DNA from: Elusimicrobiota bacterium
GTDB taxonomy: Bacteria > Elusimicrobiota > Elusimicrobia > UBA1565
Length of the DNA stretch: 32,247 nt
Direction: 5' to 3'
NCBI GenBank assembly: GCA_016196755.1
Contig: JACPXC010000049.1
Span: forward strand, 1-32,247
Position numbers and translations under genes: made by a program. The first letter of the stretch is position 1, and each line of letters starts with the position of its first letter. Shown here in pieces: positions 16,752 to 28,263 of the stretch. The notes beneath the pieces were generated by a model, which saw only the letters and a list, made by a program, of their open reading frames with translations, did not search any database and had not been told where the DNA came from.

Positions 16752-17257
16752 TCGCGCCCCTTGAGGCGCGCGGCCAGGCGGCGCGCCACGGCCTCGGGCG
16801 TCCCGCGGTCGGAGCGCACCACCAACGCGGCGGCCTTGGCGTAGAGCGCGCGGCGCTTGGAAAACAGCGCCCGGCCGCCGGAGAGCAGCGGCCGCTTGGC
16901 CGCCCCGCCCTCTCCCGCCGCGCGCTTGGCGCTGGCCGCGTAGGAGGCCTGGAGCCAGACCACCGTGCCGCTGCGGCGCATGAGGGCCCGGTTGGCCGGC
17001 CGCGTCACCGCCCCGCCGCCCACCGCCACGACCGCTCTCGGCACCCGCGCGGCGCGGGCCAGGGCCCGGGCCTCGCGGCGCCGGAAGCCCTCCTCGCCCT
17101 CGGCCGCGAAGATGCGCGCCACCGGACGCCGCGCCAGCGCCATGACCAGGGCGTCGGTGTCGACGAACGGGCGTCCCTCGAGGCGGGCCAGGGCCTTGCC
17201 GACGCTGGTCTTGCCCGCGGCCATGTAGCCGACGAGGAAGACCCTAGGGCCTGCCAT
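16748..17257 (-). CDS. aroK: Shikimate kinase
   Basis: The enzyme phosphorylates shikimate at the 3-OH (step 5). The P-loop is GYMAAGKT at residues 10-17, FVDTDAL carries the shikimate-binding aspartate, and VVAVGGGAV is the GGG substrate loop. RPLL supplies the lid arginine. At 169 residues it is standard. Its ATG lies 14 bases inside the aroC 3' end. Confidence 0.93.
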   Translation of the reverse strand: MAGPRVFLVGYMAAGKTSVGKALARLEGRPFVDTDALVMALARRPVARIFAAEGEEGFRRREARALARAARVPRAVVAVGGGAVTRPANRALMRRSGTVVWLQASYAASAKRAAGEGGAAKRPLLSGGRALFSKRRALYAKAAALVVRSDRGTPEAVARRLAARLKGRE

Positions 17258-18398
17258 AGTGCTCCTTGAGCTCGGCCAACGAGTCGCCGCCGTATTTCAC
17301 GAGGACGTGGTCGGCCAGCACCAGGCAGACCAGGGACTCGGCGATGACGGCCCCGGCCGGGACGGCGCAGGCGTCGGAGCGCTCGATATGGGCCGCGGCG
17401 TCGGTCTTGGCCTCGAGGTCGACCGAGGGCAGGGGGTTCATGAGCGTGGCGATCGGCTTCATCGCCGCGCGCACGATGAGCGGCTCGCCGGTCGACACCC
17501 CGGCGTCGATGCCGCCCGAGCGGTTGGTCTTGCGCACGACCTTGGTCTTGTCCTTGTTCCAGTAGAGGGCGTCGTGCACCTCGGAGCCGCGCTGGGAGGC
17601 GCCCGAAAATCCCATGCCGACCTCCACGCCCTTGACCGCGTTGAGGCTCATGAGCGACGCGGCCAGGTCGGCCTCGAGCCGGCGGTCCCATTGCGCATAG
17701 GAGCCGAGGCCCACCGGCAAGCCGGTGGCTATCACCTCGAAGACCCCGCCCAGCGTATCGCCGGCGGCCTTGGCCGCGTCGATGGCCCCCACCATGCCCG
17801 CTTCGGCGGCCTTGCCGAGACAGCGCACCGGCGAGGCGTCGGCGCGCTTAGACAGCGCCGCCCCGGAGAGCGCCGGCGGGGGGCTGTCGTCGGCCACGCC
17901 GCCGATGGCGGCGACCCGGCTGCCCACGGTGATCTCGAGCTCGCCCAAGAGCCGGCGCGCGGCGGTGCCAAGCGCCACGCGCATCGCGGTCTCTCGCGCG
18001 CTGGCGCGCTCGAGCGCGTCGCGCATGTCGGCCAAGCGGTACTTGAGCCTGCCGACGAGGTCCGCGTGCCCGGGGCGCGGGATGCGCACCGCGCGCTTGG
18101 CCGGGGCCGTGGAGGCCGACACGCGCATGACCTCTTCCCAGACCTTGAAGTCCTTGTTGACGATCTGCAGGGCCAGCGGTCCGCCGGTGGTCTTGCCGCG
18201 GCGCACGCCGCCCAGGATGTCGACGGCGTCGTCCTCGATCTTCATGCGCCCGCCGCGTCCGTGCCCGCGCCGGCGGCGCGCCGCCTGCTCGGCCAGGTCC
18301 TGGAGCGCGAGCGGCAGGCCGGCGGGCAGGCCCTCGAGGATCCCGGTCAGGGCCGGGCCGTGCGACTCACCGGCGGTCAAGAAGCGAAGGATCCTCAT
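17244..18398 (-). CDS. aroC: Chorismate synthase
   Basis: AroC removes phosphate from EPSP to give chorismate, using reduced FMN (step 7). From ATG 18398 the protein has 384 residues and begins MRILRFLTAGESHGPALTGI, with the GESHG signature. RRRRGHGRGGRMKIEDD, ASARETAMRVALG, and the late RSGGIDAGVSTGEP with MKPIATLMNPLPSVD are also diagnostic. A longer open frame runs upstream inside aroE but lacks family match. The start overlaps the aroE stop (ATGA). Confidence 0.95.
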   Translation of the reverse strand: MRILRFLTAGESHGPALTGILEGLPAGLPLALQDLAEQAARRRRGHGRGGRMKIEDDAVDILGGVRRGKTTGGPLALQIVNKDFKVWEEVMRVSASTAPAKRAVRIPRPGHADLVGRLKYRLADMRDALERASARETAMRVALGTAARRLLGELEITVGSRVAAIGGVADDSPPPALSGAALSKRADASPVRCLGKAAEAGMVGAIDAAKAAGDTLGGVFEVIATGLPVGLGSYAQWDRRLEADLAASLMSLNAVKGVEVGMGFSGASQRGSEVHDALYWNKDKTKVVRKTNRSGGIDAGVSTGEPLIVRAAMKPIATLMNPLPSVDLEAKTDAAAHIERSDACAVPAGAVIAESLVCLVLADHVLVKYGGDSLAELKEHYGRP

Positions 18399-19219
18399 GG
18401 GACGGCCTCCAGGTCGGCTAAAGCGGCGGCGACGGCGTCCTCGGGCAGGGTCTCGCCGAAGAAGAGCCGCCAGGTCAGCGCGGCCTGGCGCACCAGCATC
18501 CCGAGGCCCCCCAAGGTCCGCGCCCCGCCGGCGCGCGCCTGGGCGAGGAACGGGGTCTCCTTGGGCCGGTAGCCCAGGTCCACCGCCCAGGAGTCGGGAC
18601 GGAACGCCGTCCCCGCCCGCAGCGGCGAGGTTTCGGCGAAACCCGCCGAGGTGGCGTTGACGATCAGGTCGAAGGCGGAGAGCTCGGCGGCGGCGTCGCT
18701 CAAGGTCCCGGCCGAGACCCCGAAACGCCGGCTCAGGGCCTGGGCGCGCTCGGCCCCGCGGTTGTACACGGCCACCTCGGCGGCCCCGGCGCGGCGCAGG
18801 GCGGCCACCGCGGCCGCCGCGGCCCCTCCCGCGCCGAGCACGGCGGCGCGGATGCCGAAGGACGGCGCGCCGGCCGCGGCCAGGCTGTCGAGGAAGCCTT
18901 GGACGTCGGTGTTGTGGGCCAGGACGCGGCCGTCGACGAAAAGCAGGACGTTGGCCGCCCCCGGCTGGTCGACCGAAGGGTCGCACTCGTCGGCCAGCTG
19001 GGCGGCGCGCTCCTTGTGCGGGGCGGTGACGTTCCAGCCCAGCCAGGGCCCGTCGGCGCGCGCGTAGCTCAGGGTCTCGGAAAAGGCGGCGGCCGTCACC
19101 TTCAGCGGCTCGTAGGCCAGCTCCCGCCCGCGCGCCTTGGCCCAGAGGCCGAACAGGCGCGGCGAGAGCGAGTGGGCGACGGGGTCGCCGACCACCGCCG
19201 CGCGCAGAAGAGAGCTCAT
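18395..19219 (-). CDS. aroE: Shikimate dehydrogenase
   Basis: The enzyme reduces 3-dehydroshikimate to shikimate with NADPH (step 4). Motifs visible in its 274 residues are GDPVAHSLSPRLF, NVTAPHKE with the catalytic lysine, NTDVQGFLDSL with the catalytic aspartate, GAGGAAAAAV for NADP binding, and GLGMLVRQAA near the C-terminus. The usual NT in the GA(A/V)NT segment is NV here (GAANVL), a mild variation. Both ends overlap neighbours by ATGA. Confidence 0.93.
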   Translation of the reverse strand: MSSLLRAAVVGDPVAHSLSPRLFGLWAKARGRELAYEPLKVTAAAFSETLSYARADGPWLGWNVTAPHKERAAQLADECDPSVDQPGAANVLLFVDGRVLAHNTDVQGFLDSLAAAGAPSFGIRAAVLGAGGAAAAAVAALRRAGAAEVAVYNRGAERAQALSRRFGVSAGTLSDAAAELSAFDLIVNATSAGFAETSPLRAGTAFRPDSWAVDLGYRPKETPFLAQARAGGARTLGGLGMLVRQAALTWRLFFGETLPEDAVAAALADLEAVP

Positions 19220-20499
19220 GCCCCGAGCCCCTTCACGTCGTCGAAGAACGACGGATAGGAGACCGCCGCGCAGTCGGCGTCGGAGAGCTCCACCGGACCC
19301 GCCCCGGCCAGCGCCGCCACCGCGGAGGCCATGGCCAGGCGGTGGTCGCCCAGGGTCTCGACCCGGCCCGGGCGCCAGCGCGCGGGGCCGGCGACGACCA
19401 GGGCGTCGCCGTCGACGCGCGCCGAAGCGCCCAGCGCGGTCAGCGCGGCCGCCGTCCCGGCCAGGCGGTCGGACTCCTTCACGCGCAGCTCGGCCAAGCC
19501 CTCCAGCCGGCTCTCGCCGTCGGCGAAGGCGCAGAGCACGGCTAAGAGCGGGACCTCGTCGACGAGGCCGGGGACGCGCGCGGCGTCGAGCCAGCAGGGC
19601 TTCAAGCGCCCATGGGCCGCCGTCACGTCGCCCACGACCTCGCGGCCGTGCAGGCCGCCGCGCTCCCAGGACACCGGCGCGCCCATCTCGCGCAGGGCCT
19701 CGAAGAATCCCAAGCGCGTCGGGTTGAGCAGCACCTCGCGGATGATGAGCCGCGAGCCCGGCACGAGGACCGCCGCCGCGGCGAGGAAGGCCGCCGAGGA
19801 CGGGTCGCCCGGCACGGTCATGGCCTTGCCCGAGCGCAGGGCCCCAGGCCGCACCGTCACGCGTCCATCGTCGCTGCGGCAGTCCGCGCCCAGGAAGGCC
19901 AGCATGAGCTCGGTATGGTCGCGCGTGCCGAAAGGGTCTTCCACCGTGGTCTCGCCGTCGGCGTAGAGCCCGGCCAAAAGCAGGGCGGTCTTGACCTGGG
20001 CGCTGGCCACCGGCAGGCGGTAGCTGGCCCCCTTGAGCGGGCGCCGGCCGCGCAGGCGCACCGGGGCGTGGCCCTCGGAGAGCGTGATGTCGGCGCCCAT
20101 CGCGCGCAGCGGCGCGGCCACGCGCTCCATCGGACGGCGCGACAGCGAGGCGTCGCCGGTCAGCTCGGACTCGAAGGGCTGGCCCGCGAGCACGCCCATG
20201 AGAAAGCGCATCGTCGACCCGGAGTTGCCGCAGTCGAGCGCGCGCGCCGGGGCCTTGAGGCCGGCCGCGCCGGCGCCGTGGACGGCGAGGAAGCGCCCGC
20301 CCTCCTCGAAGCGCACCCCGAGGGCCTCGAGGCAGGAGCGCGTCGAGCGCACGTCCTGGCCGTCGGAGAGCCCGCGCACGTTGAGCGTGCCCTCGGCCAA
20401 CGCGCCCAAGAGCAGGGCGCGGTGCCCGATCGACTTGTCGCCCGGCACCGACGCCGAGCCCCAGAGCGGGCCGGCGGCGCGGGCGACCGTGCGGCTCAC
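19216..20499 (-). CDS. aroA: EPSP synthase (3-phosphoshikimate 1-carboxyvinyltransferase)
   Basis: AroA condenses shikimate-3-phosphate with PEP (step 6). The start GTG 20499 gives 427 residues. Signatures are SVPGDKSIGHRALLLGALAEG, LDCGNSGSTMRFLMGVLAG, GDASLSRRPM, ELRVKESDRL and GDHRLAMA. The GNSG(S/T)TMR form is typical of the Gram-positive-type enzymes more than of the enteric type; no sensitivity claim is made. GTG overlaps the aroF stop as GTGA and the stop overlaps aroE as ATGA. A longer upstream frame lies inside aroF and was rejected. Confidence 0.95.
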   Translation of the reverse strand: MSRTVARAAGPLWGSASVPGDKSIGHRALLLGALAEGTLNVRGLSDGQDVRSTRSCLEALGVRFEEGGRFLAVHGAGAAGLKAPARALDCGNSGSTMRFLMGVLAGQPFESELTGDASLSRRPMERVAAPLRAMGADITLSEGHAPVRLRGRRPLKGASYRLPVASAQVKTALLLAGLYADGETTVEDPFGTRDHTELMLAFLGADCRSDDGRVTVRPGALRSGKAMTVPGDPSSAAFLAAAAVLVPGSRLIIREVLLNPTRLGFFEALREMGAPVSWERGGLHGREVVGDVTAAHGRLKPCWLDAARVPGLVDEVPLLAVLCAFADGESRLEGLAELRVKESDRLAGTAAALTALGASARVDGDALVVAGPARWRPGRVETLGDHRLAMASAVAALAGAGPVELSDADCAAVSYPSFFDDVKGLGA

Positions 20500-21512
20500 A
20501 GCGTGTACCCCAGAACGCCCCCGAGCTTCTTGAGCGTCTCGACGAGCTCGGCGAACACCTCGGGCGGCATGGCCTGCGGACCGTCGCAGAGCGCCTCGTC
20601 GGGCCGGTCGTGGACCTCGATGATGACGCCGTGGGCCCCGACGGCCGCCGCGGCCCGGGCCAGCGGCACGACCTTGTCGCGCACCCCGGTGCCGTGGCTG
20701 GGGTCGACCATGACCGGCAGGTGGGAGAGCTTCTGCGCCACCGGGACGGCGTTCAAGTCCAGGGTGTTGCGGGTATGGCTCGAGAAGGTGCGGATGCCGC
20801 GTTCGCAGAGGATGATGCGGGCGTTGCCCTCGGCCAGCAGATATTCGGCCGACTGCAGCCACTCGTCGACCGTGGCCGAGAGTCCGCGTTTGAGGAGGAC
20901 CGGCTTGTCGAGCTTGCCGGCCTCGCGCAGGAGCGAGAAGTTCTGCATGTTGCGCGCCCCGATCTGCACGACGTCGGCGTACTTGTAGACCAGCTCGAGC
21001 GAGGCGGGGTCGAGCGCCTCGCTGACGACCGGCAGGCCGGTCTCGGCGCGCGCCTCGGCCAGGATCTTGAGCCCTTCCTCGCCCAGGCCCTGGAACGCGT
21101 AGGGCGAGGTGCGCGGCTTGAAGGCCCCGCCGCGCAGGACGTGCGCCCCGGCCTTTTTTACCAGGCGCGCGATGCGCAGGGTCTGCTCGCGGCTCTCCAC
21201 CGCGCAGGGCCCGGCCATGACGATGAAGCGCCCGGCGCCGACGCTCAGGCCCGGGCTGATCTCGACGGCGGTGTCCGGGCTCTTGAAGTCGCGCCCGGCC
21301 AGCTTGTACGACTTCGTGACCGGGATGGCCTGCTTGACGCCGGGCAAAGACTCGAAGACGCGCGGGTCGAGCGGGCCGGCGTTGCCGGTGACGCCGATGG
21401 CCGTGCCGTGCTCGCCCGGGATGATGTGGGGTTTATAGCCCAGCGCCGAGACGCGCGCGACGACCCCGTCGAGCTGCTCTTTGGAATGGTCCGGGCCCAG
21501 GATGATCAGCAT
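20496..21512 (-). CDS. aroF: DAHP synthase, type I-beta with N-terminal ACT-like domain
   Basis: The enzyme makes DAHP from PEP and erythrose-4-phosphate (step 1). Residues 1-70 form the small ferredoxin/ACT-like regulatory domain seen in Thermotoga-type enzymes, where it mediates inhibition by aromatic amino acids. The catalytic barrel shows FIVMAGPCAVES, RGGAFKPRTSPYAFQG, QIGARNMQNF, LLKRGLSAT, CERGIRTF and DPSHGTG. Length is 338, as in the T. maritima protein. The effector specificity cannot be read from sequence. It sits at the trp/aro boundary, with its start overlapping the trpA 3' end by 7 bp, so the pathway entry enzyme is tied to Trp gene expression. Confidence 0.95.
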   Translation of the reverse strand: MLIILGPDHSKEQLDGVVARVSALGYKPHIIPGEHGTAIGVTGNAGPLDPRVFESLPGVKQAIPVTKSYKLAGRDFKSPDTAVEISPGLSVGAGRFIVMAGPCAVESREQTLRIARLVKKAGAHVLRGGAFKPRTSPYAFQGLGEEGLKILAEARAETGLPVVSEALDPASLELVYKYADVVQIGARNMQNFSLLREAGKLDKPVLLKRGLSATVDEWLQSAEYLLAEGNARIILCERGIRTFSSHTRNTLDLNAVPVAQKLSHLPVMVDPSHGTGVRDKVVPLARAAAAVGAHGVIIEVHDRPDEALCDGPQAMPPEVFAELVETLKKLGGVLGYTL

Positions 21513-22321
21513 GACGTCCTCCTCATCGCCGCGGCCAAGGCGGCCGCGGCCGTCCCGAGGGCGCGTCCGTTCGCCTCGGGGTCCGTCCCTTCCAAAAGCC
21601 GCACCAAGGCGCTGCCGACGATGACGCCGTCGGCGAGCTTGGCCGCCGCCGCGGCCTGCTCGGGCGTCGAGACCCCGAAGCCCACCGCCACCGGCAAGGC
21701 GCCCGCCGCCCTCTTGAAGCGCGCCAGGTCGTCGCCGAGCCCGGCGTCTAGCGCGGCCGAGGTCCCGGTGACGCCGAGCCGGGCCACGCAATAGAGGAAC
21801 CCGCTCGAGGCCGCCGCCGCCGCGGCCAGGCGCTCGGCGCTCGTCGTCGGCGCGGCGAGGAATATCGTGCCCAAGCCCGCGGCCCGGCAGGCCGCCGCGG
21901 GCTCGGCGGACTCCTCGACCGGGACGTCGACTAAGAGCACCCCGTCTACCCCGGCCGCCGCGGCTCGACGCACGAAGGACTCCCAACCCATGGCCGCGGC
22001 GGGGTTCGCGTAGGTGAAGAGGACCAGGGGCAGGGCGAAGCCCTCGGCGCGCTTGGCCGTCACCAGGGTCAGGACCCCGGCCAAGGTGGCGCCGCCGGCC
22101 AGGGCGCGCTCCGCCGAGCGCTGGTTGACCGGGCCGTCGGCCACCGGGTCGGAAAACGGCACGCCCAGTTCGATGACGTCGGCCCCGGCCGCGGCTAGGG
22201 CGTCGAGGTAGCGCCCGGTCCACTCCAGGGTCGGGTCCCCGGCGGTGAGGTAGGGCACGAAGGCCGAGCGGCCGTCGGCCGCGGCCTTCTTGAACGCCGC
22301 CTCGAGCCGCTCCTTAGCCAC
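21506..22321 (-). CDS. trpA: Tryptophan synthase alpha subunit
   Basis: TrpA cleaves indole-3-glycerol phosphate and passes indole to TrpB. The start GTG 22321 gives 271 residues. The catalytic glutamate and aspartate are E51 ([11 protein letters not shown]) and D62 (PVADGP); the flexible loop is GVTGTSAAL, and GFGVSTPEQ and GVIVGSALV bind phosphate. The GTG lies eight bases inside the trpB end. A longer upstream frame within trpB is spurious. Confidence 0.95.
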
Positions 22322-23504
22322 CCGAGGCCTCGCGCGCGCGGCGCACCGAGTCGACGTCCTTGTCGCCGCGGCCGGAGAGGTTGAGGACGACGACCTTGCC
22401 CTTGTAGGCGGCGGCCTCGCGGCATAGCCAGGCCACGGCATGGGCGCTCTCAAGGGCCGGCAGGATGCCCTCTTCGCGGGCCAGACGGTCGAAGGCGTCC
22501 AGCGCCTCAACGTCGGAGACCGACTCGTAGCGCGCCCGTCCGCTCTCGGCCAGATCGGCATGCTGGGGCCCCACCGCCGGGTAGTCGAGGCCGGCCGAGA
22601 CGCTGTGCGTCTCGCGCACCTGGCCGTGGGCGTCCTGCAGGAGCATCGTGAACGTACCGTGGAGGATTCCCGGGGCGCCGCCGCCGGGCCCCGCGGCGAA
22701 GCGCGCCGCGTGCCGGCCGGGCTCAAGACCCGTGCCGCCGGCCTCGACGCCGACCAGTTCGACGGCGGGGTCGCTCAAAAATCCCGAGAATAGGCCGATC
22801 GCGTTTGACCCGCCTCCGACGCAGGCCAGCGCCAGGTCGGGCAGGCGGCCGGCCTGGGCGCGCACCTGAGCACGCGCCTCCCAGCCGATGCAGGCGTGGA
22901 AATCCCGGACCATGCTCGGGAACGGATGCGGCCCCAGGGCCGAGCCGAGGACGTAGTGGGTGGTCTTGACGCTGCCCGCCCAGTCGCGCATGGCCTCGTT
23001 GACGGCGTCTTTAAGCGTGCGCGAGCCCGAGTCCACCGAGCGCACCTCGGCGCCCAAGAGCCTCATGCGGAAGACGTTCAGGGCCTGGCGCTCCATGTCG
23101 ACGGCACCCATGTAGACGACGCAGGTCAGCCCGAGCTTGGCCGCCGCGGTGGCGGTGGCCACGCCGTGCTGGCCGGCCCCGGTCTCGGCGATGACGCGGG
23201 TCTTGCCCATGCGCTTGGCGAGCAGGCACTGCCCCACCGAGTTGTTGATCTTATGCGCCCCGGTATGGGCCAGGTCCTCGCGCTTGAGATAGAGCTCGAG
23301 CCCGAGGCTTCCCCCGAGCTTGGCGGCCTTGGTCAGCGGCGTGGGGCGGCCGACGAAATCCTTGAGCAGGGCCGAAAGCTCGGCCTGAAACGACGGCTCG
23401 GCCTTGAAGAGCTCGTAGGCCGCCTCGAGCTCCAGGAGCGGCCCCATCAGGGTCTCGGGGGCGTAGCGTCCGCCGAAGCGCCCGAAGCGTCCCGTGCCGC
23501 TCAC
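22314..23504 (-). CDS. trpB: Tryptophan synthase beta subunit
   Basis: TrpB is the PLP enzyme joining indole and serine. The start GTG 23504 gives 396 residues beginning [19 protein letters not shown]. The PLP lysine is K85 in [32 protein letters not shown] and [14 protein letters not shown] are TrpB1-type signatures. It starts in a GTGA overlap with the trpCF stop and is coupled to trpA, as expected for an alpha2-beta2 complex. Confidence 0.95.
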
Positions 23505-24915
23505 AAGAGTCCCGCCTGGGAGTCGGCGCGCCACACGCCGGCGAAGAAGTCCTCGAGCAGGGCCCCGTCCTTGACGCCCGGCGAGCGCTCGACGCCGCTC
23601 GACACGTCGACGCCCCAGGGCCGCGCGCGCTCCATCGCCGTCTCGACGTTGAGGGGGGTCAGTCCGCCGGCGAGCAGGGTCCGCGGCCGCCGTCGGGCGA
23701 GCTTCCCGGCCAAGGTCCAATCGACGTCGGGGGCGCCGGGGACGCCCTTGGGACGGTCGACGAGCAGCCAGCGCGCGGCGCGCCCGGCCGCCGCGCCGAG
23801 GTCGGCGTCACCGCCGAGGCTGACGGCCTTCACGCAGCGCCCGGCGCCCAGGATGTCCACCATGAGGTCGCTCTCGGCGCCGTGGAGCTGGATGAGGTCG
23901 AGCCCGCAAGCCTCGGCCGCGGCGCGCGCCTCGGACTCGGGCTGATCGGCGAACACCCCGACCTTGAGCACCCCCACCCCGGCGCCCTGCGCGACGCGGC
24001 GCGCCTCGGCGACGCTCAGGCAGCGCGGGGTGCCCGGCACGAAGACAAATCCCAGCGCCCAGGCGCCGAGGCTCGAGGCGGTGTAGGCGTCCTCCGCGCG
24101 GGTCAGCCCGCAGACCTTGACCCGCGTGCCCACCGGCCGGCCGAGCAGTCTGGCCAGGGCGGCGCCCGGGCGGCCCGAGCGCATGAGGTGGCTGCCGACG
24201 AGGGCCGCGGAGCAGCCCGCCGCCGACAGGGCCGCGAGCTCCGCGGCCGAGCCCACCCCACTCTCGCCCACGACGAGCGCCCCGGCGGCCTTGGCCGCGG
24301 GGGCCAGGCGCAGGGCGACGGCGGGGTCGACCTTAAGGGTCTTGAAGTCGCGGTTGTTGATGCCGATGAGCCGCGCGCCGGCCGAGAGGGCCCGCGCCAG
24401 CTCGGTCTCGTCGTGGACCTCGACTAGCGCCGAGAGCCCTAGCTCCGAGGTCGTCGCGAAGAGCTGCCGGAACTCGGTGTCGCCTAATACCGAGAGCATG
24501 AGCAGGACGGCGTCGGCCCCGTGGGCCCGGGCCTCGAGCAATTGGTACTCATCGACGATGAAGTCCTTGCGCAGGAGGGGCAAAGCGACGGCCGCGCGCG
24601 CGGCGTCCAAGTCCGCCAGCGAACCGCCGAAGAATTCGGGCTCGGTCAGGACCGACACCGCCGCCGCGCCGTGGTCCTGGTACTCGAAGGCGCAGGCCCC
24701 GGCGTCGAGGTCGGGGACCAGCGCGCCCTGCGACGGCGAGGCGCGCTTGACCTCGGCGATGACCTTGATGGGGCCGCCCGACAAGGCGGCGGAAAAGTCC
24801 AAAGGCCGGCGCGCGCCGAAGCGCTCGCGCAGGAGCTCGGCCGGCCTCTTCGCCTTGGACTCCTCCACCCGGCGCCGGGTCGACTGCAGGATCTTATCGA
24901 AGACCGGGAGCACGC

Positions 24916-24919
<4 letters not shown>
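23501..24919 (-). CDS. trpCF: Fused indole-3-glycerol phosphate synthase / phosphoribosylanthranilate isomerase
   Basis: Two (beta/alpha)8 barrels are encoded in one 472-residue chain. Residues 1-258 are Trp[38 protein letters not shown] and VGESGV. Residues about 266-472 are Trp[11 protein letters not shown] with its catalytic cysteine, ALGFVF, LIQLHG, and VDVSSGVE with PGVKD. The same order of fusion occurs in E. coli TrpC. Start GTG 24919 overlaps the trpD stop. Confidence 0.95.
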
Positions 24920-25922
<1,003 letters not shown>

Positions 25923-25926
<4 letters not shown>

Positions 25927-26495
25927 GCGCTAAGCCTCAGGAAATTGGCCAGGAGAGCCGCCCCGCCCTCGGTGGCGAACGACTCGGGGTGGAACTGGAC
26001 GCCGTGCATCGGCCAGCGCCGGTGGCGCAGGCCCATGACGACGCCGTCGGAGGACTGGGCGGTGACGGACAGCTCGCGCGGCAGACCGCGCTTTTCCACC
26101 GTCAGCGAGTGGTAACGCGCCACGGACAACTCCCTGGGCAGGCCCGCGAACAAACCCTTTCCGTCGTGGCTGATGGAGGAGAGCTTGCCGTGCATGAGCC
26201 GCGGAGCCCGGCGCACCCGGCCGCCTAAGGCATGGGCCATGGCCTGATGCCCCAGGCAGACGCCCAGCATGGGGACTTGGGGACCCAGCTCCTTTATAAG
26301 GTCCAGGCAGACCCCGGACTCCGCGGGCCCGCCGGGGCCGGGGGAGAGCACGACGTGCGAGGGCTTGAGCCGCCGGGCCTCCGCCACCGAGACGGCGTCG
26401 TTGCGCCGCACGACGACCTTGGCCCCCAGCTCGCAGAGGAGCTGGTAGAGGTTGTAGGTGAAGGAGTCGTAGTTGTCGACTAAGAGCACCGTCAT
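25923..26495 (-). CDS. trpG: Anthranilate synthase glutaminase subunit
   Basis: TrpG supplies ammonia from glutamine to TrpE. The class I amidotransferase triad is visible: C80 in LGVCLGHQ and H169/E171 in QFHPES. The N-terminus LLVDNYDSFTYNLYQLL and SPGPGGP are TrpG/PabA signatures, so dual use in folate synthesis is possible but unproved. Length is 190; the ATG overlaps the trpE stop (ATGA). Confidence 0.95.
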
Positions 26496-27856
26496 GCCCG
26501 CACCGCCGCCAGCGCCGCCGCGGCCTTGGCGTTGACCTCGGCCCACTCGGCCGCGGGACGCGAGTCGGCGACGATCCCTGCCCCGGCCTGGGCGCGGACG
26601 AGCCAGCCGGCGCGCTCGCGCTTCATGCGCAGAGAACGGATGGCGATGGCGCTGTCCAAATTCCCGTGGAAGTCGTGGTAGACGACGGCCCCGGCGTAGA
26701 ACCCGCGCGGCTCGCTTTCCAGACCACCCAGGATGCTCATGGCGCGGATCTTCGGGGCGCCCGAGACGGTGCCGGCCGGGAAGGCGGCGGCCAGGGCGTC
26801 CCAGGCCGTGCGGCCGGGACCTAAGCGCCCAGTGACGGTGGAGACCAGGTGCATGACGTGCGAGTAGCGCTCGATGGAGCGGAACACCGGCACGCGCACC
26901 GACCCCGGGCGCGCGACGCGGCCCAGGTCGTTTCTGCCCAAGTCTACGAGCATCAGATGCTCGGCGCCTTCCTTGACGCTGGCTTTCAAGTCGCGCTCGC
27001 GCCGCGCGTCCTCCTCGGGCCCGGCCCCGCGCGGCCGGGTGCCGGCGATGGGGCGGGTCTCGAGGTTCCCCTGGTGACAGCGCACGAGAGTCTCGGGCGA
27101 GGCACCCAGCCAGGCCTCGGGGCCGTCTTCCAAGAGGAACATGTACGGCGACGGGTTGAGCCGCCGCAGGCGCCGGTAGACCTCGGCGGGTGAGGAAGAC
27201 GACGAGGTCTCGAAGGGCGCCGACAGCACGGCCTGGAAGACGTCGCCGGCGCGGATGTGCTCCTTGATCTTGCGCACCCCGGCCTGGTAGGCGGCGGCGC
27301 TCATGAGCCCGCGGACCGCGGTCTTAGTATTCGAAACCTTGGCTTCGCGGACCGGAGACGACAACCGCCGCTGCAAAGCATCGAGCGCCCCGCGCGAGCC
27401 CGAGTTCGACACCAACAGCAATCGTCCCCGGGCATGGTCGAAGGCCACGACCTCGGGGAACACCCACAGCCGCGCCTCGTCGCCCGGCGGGGTCTTGAGC
27501 CCGGCCTTGGGCTCGAGGTGGCGCATCATCTCGTAGCCGACCCAGCCGACCGCCCCGCCCGCAAACGGCGGCAGGCCGGGGACGTCGGCCGCGCGCCGCG
27601 CCGCCAGCCGCTTCCCCAACGCCATAAACGGGTTGCCGGGCAGCACGCCCTCCGTGCTCGAGCGGGCCGCGCCGTCTTTGACCGTCAAGGTCTCCACGGG
27701 GCCGGTCCCTAAGAACGACCAGCGCGCGGCCCCGCCTGAAGAAGCGCCGCTTTCCAAAAGAAAAGACGGGGATTTCCCGCGCAGACGCAGATAGGCGCCG
27801 ACCGGGGTCAACAGGTCCCCGGGCAGCTCGCGCAGGATGGGCTTCATCATCTTCAT
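26492..27856 (-). CDS. trpE: Anthranilate synthase component I
   Basis: TrpE converts chorismate and ammonia to anthranilate. The 454-residue protein has an N-terminal LLES element at the tryptophan feedback site, GGAVGWVGYEMM, and the chorismate-binding core RPIAGTRPRG, HLMLVDLGRNDLGRV and SGAPKIRAMSIL. ATG 27856 is preceded by a T-rich tract and no Shine-Dalgarno sequence; internal ATGs at codons 3 and 4 are alternatives. It is the first gene after the attenuator, whose T-tract ends six bases before the start. Confidence 0.96.
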   Translation of the reverse strand: MKMMKPILRELPGDLLTPVGAYLRLRGKSPSFLLESGASSGGAARWSFLGTGPVETLTVKDGAARSSTEGVLPGNPFMALGKRLAARRAADVPGLPPFAGGAVGWVGYEMMRHLEPKAGLKTPPGDEARLWVFPEVVAFDHARGRLLLVSNSGSRGALDALQRRLSSPVREAKVSNTKTAVRGLMSAAAYQAGVRKIKEHIRAGDVFQAVLSAPFETSSSSSPAEVYRRLRRLNPSPYMFLLEDGPEAWLGASPETLVRCHQGNLETRPIAGTRPRGAGPEEDARRERDLKASVKEGAEHLMLVDLGRNDLGRVARPGSVRVPVFRSIERYSHVMHLVSTVTGRLGPGRTAWDALAAAFPAGTVSGAPKIRAMSILGGLESEPRGFYAGAVVYHDFHGNLDSAIAIRSLRMKRERAGWLVRAQAGAGIVADSRPAAEWAEVNAKAAAALAAVRA

Positions 27857-27861
27857 AAAAT

Positions 27862-27887
27862 AAAAAACCCACTTCGTTAGAAGTGGG
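27862..27887 (-). terminator. trp attenuator terminator
   Basis: On the minus strand cccacttc (27880-27887 as gaagtggg on plus) pairs perfectly with gaagtggg across a 4-nt loop (27868-27887 overall), followed by six T (27867-27862). The trpE ATG is five bases after the T-tract. The 5' half of the stem is also part of an alternative pairing with 27916-27930. Confidence 0.9.
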
Positions 27888-27930
27888 CCGCTGGTCCTTG
27901 CTCTCGCGACTAAATCAGCGGGCGACCCAC
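27883..27930 (-). promoter_or_regulatory. trp antiterminator pairing
   Basis: Minus-strand segment 2 (27930-27916: gtggg and cgctg around a 5-nt bulge) pairs with segment 3 (27893-27883, cagcggcccac), which contains most of the terminator's 5' arm. A competing segment 1, cagtgg (27956-27951, leader codons 8-9), pairs with ccgctg of segment 2. This gives the 1:2, 2:3 and 3:4 logic of ribosome-mediated attenuation. Confidence 0.75.
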
Positions 27931-27977
27931 CTCGTAGAGGGGCGCCACCGCCACTGATAAGCCTTAGAGCCGTTCAC
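27915..27977 (-). CDS. trpL: trp leader peptide, 20 aa with three Trp
   Basis: A GTG at 27977 opens a 20-codon frame ending at TGA (27915-27917). The peptide has Trp at 9, 11 and 17 (YQWRWRP and TRWVAR). Three Trp in 20 residues is far above chance and the stop falls at the start of antiterminator segment 2, as expected of a sensor peptide. Ribosome stalling at Trp codons 9 or 11 would cover segment 1 and free segment 2 to pair with segment 3. The GTG lies nine bases after the -10 box, leaving a 5' UTR of about three bases and no room for a Shine-Dalgarno sequence, so initiation is probably leaderless. Two nearby ATGs give frames of only 4 and 6 codons without Trp. Confidence 0.88.
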   Translation of the reverse strand: MNGSKAYQWRWRPSTRWVAR

Positions 27978-27986
27978 GACCCATCC

Positions 27987-28016
27987 ATTATAGGGGCGGG
28001 GGTCGTTTTCTGTCAA
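27987..28016 (-). promoter_or_regulatory. Consensus promoter of the trp-aro supraoperon
   Basis: On the minus strand TTGACA (28016-28011) and TATAAT (27992-27987) both match consensus perfectly with an 18-bp spacer. Transcription would start near 27980. It is the only perfect sigma70-type promoter noticed in the window. No trp operator was recognised. Confidence 0.88.
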
Positions 28017-28068: not shown

Positions 28069-28263
28069 TCAGCCCGTGCAGAAGTCGTGGGAGCGGACGG
28101 TCTTGCGGCCGTTGGCGGCGGCGCGCTTGCAGGCCTGCTGGACGTACCAGTGCACCACGCCGTTGAGGCCCTCGAGGGCGTCGCCGGCCACGTTGCACTT
28201 GCCGGCCTTTATGAGCCCCTTCACCTTCGACGCGACCAGCACCATCTCCATCTTCTTGGCCAT
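28069..28263 (-). CDS. Bacterial histone (single histone fold)
   Basis: From ATG 28263, preceded by aggag, the protein has 64 residues. It fits a minimal histone fold: helix 1 SKVKGLIKAG, loop 1 KCNVAG, a long helix 2 DALEGLNGVVHWYVQQACKR through about residue 51, and loop 2 RKTVRSHDF. The R53/D60 pair has the spacing of the conserved Arg-Asp clamp of archaeal histones. Related short histones are known as chromatin proteins in Bdellovibrio. The N-terminal tail is very short (MAKK). A 29-residue upstream extension is in frame but lacks family likeness. It probably dimerises and binds DNA; binding mode cannot be read here. It has its own promoter and terminator. Confidence 0.85.
   Translation of the reverse strand: MAKKMEMVLVASKVKGLIKAGKCNVAGDALEGLNGVVHWYVQQACKRAAANGRKTVRSHDFCTG

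Follow-up and report, generated by a model that had tools for sequence, protein, structure and literature searches.

The window, which is the whole stretch of DNA analysed (32,247 nt), belongs to a 4.59 Mb genome of an Elusimicrobiota bacterium (G000 below). A trp leader, its promoter and the operon behind it all lie on the minus strand, with the following features.

28011-28016, minus strand: -35 hexamer TTGACA (hexamer match)
27987-27992, minus strand: -10 hexamer TATAAT, 18-nt spacer (hexamer match; same hexamer in 5/5 homologous leaders)
27979-27981, minus strand: predicted transcription start, 5-7 nt 3' of the -10 hexamer (placed from the hexamer position; expected 5' UTR of 2-4 nt)
27915-27977, minus strand: trpL leader peptide, GTG, 20 codons VNGSKAYQWRWRPSTRWVAR, TGA (ORF reading and shuffles)
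27937-27956, minus strand: segment 1, containing Trp9 and Trp11 (folding)
27916-27933, minus strand: segment 2, containing Trp17 and extending into the stop codon (folding)
27880-27893, minus strand: segment 3 (folding and alignment)
27868-27875, minus strand: segment 4, terminator stem with segment 3, then TTTTTTATTTT to 27857 (folding and alignment)
26492-27856, minus strand: trpE, anthranilate synthase component I, without a Shine-Dalgarno sequence, its ATG right after the T-rich tail
25923-26546, minus strand: trpG, ORF as listed, true start probably further downstream
24916-25926, minus strand: trpD
23501-24919, minus strand: trpC-trpF fusion
22314-23720, minus strand: ORF containing trpB
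21506-22726, minus strand: ORF containing trpA
20496-22223, minus strand: ORF containing the DAHP synthase gene
17244-20862, minus strand: ORFs with aroA (EPSP synthase), aroE (shikimate dehydrogenase) and aroC (chorismate synthase)

The genes between 17244 and 27856 thus form a single run on one strand, in the order trpE, trpG, trpD, trpC-F, trpB, trpA, DAHP synthase, aroA, aroE and aroC. With trp and aro genes following on the same strand, the attenuator seems to stand at the head of a trp/aro operon, and judging from this gene order it may restrain the common aromatic pathway as well. The gene immediately upstream of the attenuator, at 28069-28263 on the minus strand, encodes a 64-aa protein, MAKKMEMVLVASKVKGLIKAGKCNVAGDALEGLNGVVHWYVQQACKRAAANGRKTVRSHDFCTG, which matched solved bacterial histone-fold proteins (9qt0, E 2.9e-8; 8cmp; 8fvx). 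The end of the same histone-fold-like gene also precedes the leader in G001, a genome of the same genus.

The promoter had been described as perfect in the original prediction, and its hexamers did match at 12/12 positions, with the refinement that the spacer was 18 rather than the optimal 17. It was the sole such site in the 0.9 kb scanned (shuffles, mean 0.0). The pattern TTGACN-N16..18-TATAAT occurred at only ten sites in the 4.59 Mb genome, and the reversed-pattern control gave 0. The GTG of trpL (27977-27975) begins 9 nt after TATAAT. The distance from the -10 hexamer to the transcription start was borrowed from Streptomyces lividans, in which 88.7% of promoters initiate 5-7 nt after the hexamer (PMC8079986). 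Because the transcription start was placed 5-7 nt after the hexamer, a 5' UTR of 2-4 nt is expected, so that the trpL 5' end is predicted to be near-leaderless and not strictly leaderless. With this predicted start, the transcript would contain no Shine-Dalgarno sequence ahead of the GTG. Two other start codons were rejected, namely an in-frame TTG, which lies upstream of the predicted transcription start, and an out-of-frame ATG at 27984, which was not kept in G001.

The leader peptide was found as originally described, with Trp codons 9, 11 and 17 at 27953-27951, 27947-27945 and 27929-27927 and the stop codon TGA at 27917-27915. Among dinucleotide shuffles of the leader stretch, 0.14% contained an ORF of up to 30 codons with at least 3 Trp. 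A short ORF with clustered Trp codons therefore stands between the promoter and the trp operon, as expected of an attenuator.

The competing RNA segments were also borne out by folding. Segments 1 and 2 formed the 1:2 pairing; segment 2 GAGGTGGGTCG paired with segment 3 CGGCCCACTTC at 11/11 positions with G-U allowed, which had a chance of 0.17% in mononucleotide shuffles. The 3:4 terminator hairpin had an energy of -14.8 kcal/mol (z = -5.5) and was followed by TTTTTTATTTT, in which the six T noted earlier form the T-run TTTTTT. The locus thus combines mutually exclusive 1:2, 2:3 and 3:4 pairings with a U-run terminator, as an attenuator would.

The mechanism was tested by folding the RNA with a modelled ribosome edge masking bases. 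When the A site held codon 9 or 11 and segment 4 did not yet exist, 2:3 formed at -23.5 kcal/mol. A ribosome placed with its A site at codon 17 or at the stop codon made 2:3 impossible, and only the 3:4 terminator formed. In silico, therefore, a stall at the sensor codons freed segment 2 and a ribosome at the stop codon masked it. Because these outcomes differ, the sensors in this model are Trp codons 9 and 11 and not 17. Trp17, which is inside segment 2 and at which a stall yields the terminator, was rejected as a sensor codon. At equilibrium, folding preferred the terminator (-27.2 vs -24.0 kcal/mol), even with segment 1 removed; antitermination would therefore need kinetic folding, with 2:3 formed first. 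In the E. coli trp system, antitermination is generally held to rely on 2:3 forming first.

The region 5' of trpE was then scanned in Elusimicrobiota genomes. Homologous leaders were found ahead of trpE in G001 (same genus), G004 and G005 (same family, f1) and G283 (family f5, same class), with the leader peptides VNGTAKNLWSWWRPF, MITNAVYSWTWWWYASSEGVVR, MIANTAYAWTWWWGAPKGVVR and MIDQNAGKTWWGYWPLCGRVAL, respectively. TTGACN-17/18-TATAAT was present in all five leaders. The start codon was GTG in G000 and G001 and ATG in the other leaders, and the peptides had 15-22 aa. It had been proposed that loss of the Trp codons in close relatives would count against the element. Trp9 and Trp11 were kept in 4/4 family members with a leader, and G283 had Trp10, 11 and 14; Trp17 occurred only in the window leader among the five. 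The peptide sequence outside the Trp codons was not kept. Two trpE-bearing relatives of the family, G003 (L002) and G006 (L004), had no leader; the attenuator of their trpE was either lost or never present. The trpE of G003 is placed downstream of aroA, and that of G006 has TACAAT 7 nt ahead of its own ATG.

Compensatory changes were found in 2 pairs of the 3:4 helix, with 97.5% of cells paired vs 38-53% when slid, and in 2 pairs of the 2:3 helix, with 92.5% paired vs 33-60% when slid. These counts are small (n = 5) and come from the same leaders that defined the alignment; the changes are supportive, not conclusive, for the attenuator. A covariance model of the five leaders was run on 235 genomes of the class, and the training members scored 95-128 bits and all else at most 32 bits. 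The latter matches were mostly hairpin-plus-T background in one family, and the best was a Met/Cys leader, not a Trp leader. The closest named TrpE came from an Elusimicrobia MAG (L007), whose leader locus equals that of G005, which places the organism of the window in Elusimicrobiota. Upstream of 80 TrpE genes (L007-L086), almost all of which belong to other phyla, a strict promoter model gave no further clear leaderless Trp leader besides L007; this model cannot exclude Streptomyces leaders, and Streptomyces promoters rarely hold TATAAT. Rfam gave no match in the window at the gathering threshold. The best match over 4227 families was RF00513 Trp_leader, exactly at the leader and sub-threshold (23.7 vs 41 bits, E 0.013, 401 bases), and G004 scored 24.6 bits, also under the 41-bit cut-off. 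Such scores mark the limit of a sequence family and are not a test of mechanism.

The claim of a leaderless GTG was supported indirectly by two independent lines, the geometry of the five leaders and a genome-wide excess of start codons, and was refined to a near-leaderless, predicted 5' end. The gap between TATAAT and the start codon was 9 nt in the window, 9 in G001, 7 in G005, 7 in G004 and 10 in G283, which gives 5' UTRs of 0-5 nt with initiation 5-7 nt after the hexamer. TATAAT precedes the start codon by 7-10 nt in 5/5 leaders, so a leaderless or near-leaderless 5' end is probably a conserved feature of them. In the genome, TATAAT-N0..30-ATG occurred 179 times vs 32 for the reversed pattern. 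Among the 94 listed sites that remained after repeats were removed by hand, a sample of the 179, the ATG lay at 5-10 nt in 42 and at 11-30 nt in 37 (p 8e-9, peak at 6). The leadered control, Bacillus, gave 22 and 60, respectively (p 0.43), with no peak. At 4 of the ten strongest promoters, a long-ORF start or trpL followed 5-9 nt on (rpsT, argG, a ribbon-helix-helix-like gene and trpL), and at a fifth one of the ten a 169-codon GTG ORF began at 6 nt. Further -10-adjacent starts belonged to leuS, secG, folD and a PLP-dependent sulfur-metabolism-like gene, all named from sequence reading and not from searches. G000 loci with a -10 hexamer 5-10 nt before the start codon included L154, L156, L160, L169, L171, L181 and L188. 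Shine-Dalgarno starts were also present, at the gene before the attenuator and at a thioredoxin gene. The 16S gene was absent from this assembly, and the 3' end of the family's 16S was not found by pattern. From promoter spacing, the trpL leader follows what would be a general leaderless habit of the lineage.

The same attenuator might have an ordinary 5' UTR, transcription starting either upstream, from another promoter or by read-through, or right after the -10 hexamer with G-rich bases as Shine-Dalgarno sequence. The bases after the hexamer are GGATGGG in the window and GGAGGGG in G001, in which GGAGGGGTCGTG directly after TATAAT would be a good Shine-Dalgarno sequence if transcribed. However, the G-rich stretch was missing in G004, G005 and G283 (TGATGCA, TGATTCA and TATCGCTGGT), and its use would need initiation 1-2 nt after the hexamer. 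In addition, the terminator of the upstream gene forms a strong hairpin directly before the -35 hexamer, and the scan of 0.9 kb gave no other strong promoter. We regard an ordinary 5' UTR as improbable.

Ribosome-mediated trp attenuation, as originally proposed, was supported by the anatomy, the gene context, the kept Trp codons and the compensatory helix changes, and we consider it highly probable that the element is such an attenuator of the trp operon with a leaderless or near-leaderless trpL. RNA polymerase would initiate 2-4 nt ahead of the GTG, and a ribosome, needing no Shine-Dalgarno sequence, would load at the 5' end or very close to it and translate trpL. With ample Trp-tRNA, the ribosome would reach codon 17 or the stop codon and cover segment 2, so that the 3:4 terminator would halt transcription before trpE. 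With scarce Trp-tRNA, a stall at codon 9 or 11 would cover segment 1, and 2:3 would pair before segment 4 is made; transcription would then continue into trpEGD(CF)BA and the aro genes behind. With no ribosome, 1:2 and 3:4 would form and transcription would stop. Against this explanation, the 9-nt gap puts 2-4 nt before the GTG, and E. coli makes poor use of a leaderless GTG (PMC4633059); the small covariation counts, the equilibrium preference for the terminator and the missing leader in G003 and G006 also count against it. In M. smegmatis, a 5' GTG equals ATG for leaderless translation (PMC4633059).

By analogy with rnTrpL and peTrpL of Sinorhizobium meliloti, the terminated leader RNA or the peptide might also act in trans. 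The size of about 120 nt and the predicted leaderless start resemble S. meliloti (PMC7298713), but the peptide outside the Trp codons was not kept among relatives, and such a role seems very unlikely. The suggestion that the Trp-rich ORF and the hairpins are coincidental, trpE being regulated otherwise (e.g., by a repressor) and the hairpin being a plain terminator of the upstream unit, could draw on the equilibrium preference for the terminator and on the sub-threshold Rfam score, but it is already disfavoured and hardly credible given that five genomes carry a Trp-rich peptide in this position, that four family members keep Trp9 and Trp11, and that compensatory changes and low chance estimates from the shuffles were found.

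The predicted attenuator shares with E. coli trpL and RF00513 the logic of 1:2, 2:3 and 3:4 pairings, in which segment 1 contains Trp codons and the stop codon is next to segment 2. The E. coli trpL has a 5' UTR with a Shine-Dalgarno sequence, whereas no Shine-Dalgarno leader is predicted here, and the RF00513 score is below the gathering cut-off. In S. meliloti, trpE is controlled by ribosome-mediated attenuation with a leaderless leader; the 5' end of the attenuator RNA coincides with the AUG of trpL, and leaderless trpL translation was seen by Ribo-seq (PMC7298713, PMC10117765). That alphaproteobacterial leader has its AUG exactly at +1 and encodes a 14-aa peptide, whereas the leaders here have a predicted 5' end, the GTG of G000 and G001 lies about 2-4 nt in, the peptides have 15-22 aa and the phylum is Elusimicrobiota. 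S. lividans has several leader peptides with leaderless transcripts, among them LeuL and, before trpE, TrpL1 (PMC8079986). TrpL1 resembles the present leader in its Trp-rich peptide before trpE and its rho-independent terminator, but belongs to another phylum and precedes a monocistronic trpE rather than a trp/aro operon. In Deinococcus-Thermus, again another phylum, -10-adjacent genes are widespread, as ORFs directly behind a -10 hexamer are common genome-wide here; that paper appears to concern gene expression generally and not attenuators (PMC12340547). A search of the open-licence literature gave nothing on leaderless genes, or on trp attenuation, in Elusimicrobiota. The original prediction had seen leaderless loading as a distinct way to synchronise ribosome and polymerase. 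Because leaderless trp attenuators are documented in S. meliloti and S. lividans (PMC7298713, PMC10117765, PMC8079986), the mechanism is already known; what this case adds is its phylum, a GTG offset from the predicted 5' end and conservation across the family.

A sister element was seen at L197 (G297:C74:5712-5845, minus strand; same class, family f7). It has TTGACA-17-TATAAT with an ATG 12 nt on, the peptide MNANKYQMMMCMCSRSAGEGFIAL and the terminator AACCCACTTCC...GGAAAGTGGGTTTTTT, followed by a sulfate-binding-protein-like gene (Pfam SBP_bac_11). Its sequence suggests that it is likely a Met/Cys-responsive attenuator of sulfate uptake, and this Met/Cys-rich leader and the Trp leader have in common the promoter-next-to-start geometry and a terminator. 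Ahead of this gene in eight further genomes of the class, no Met/Cys leader was seen. A broader idea, which we put forward only tentatively and hold to be rather doubtful, is that leaderless initiation is so common in Elusimicrobiota that amino-acid attenuators are built on leaderless starts as a rule, as in the Trp leader and the Met/Cys leader of G297, that the resulting, tightly timed ribosome loading evolved separately from the alphaproteobacterial and actinobacterial cases, and that a GTG 2-4 nt from the 5' end is used efficiently.

These results correct the relevant Trp codons to 9 and 11, not 17, and would carry leaderless trp attenuation into a phylum in which hardly any experimental genetics has been done. 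They also tie trp attenuation to a genome-wide leaderless habit that is seen here only in the sequence. If three lineages share this solution, one could test whether attenuation is timed differently when ribosomes load at the 5' end than when the leader has a Shine-Dalgarno sequence.
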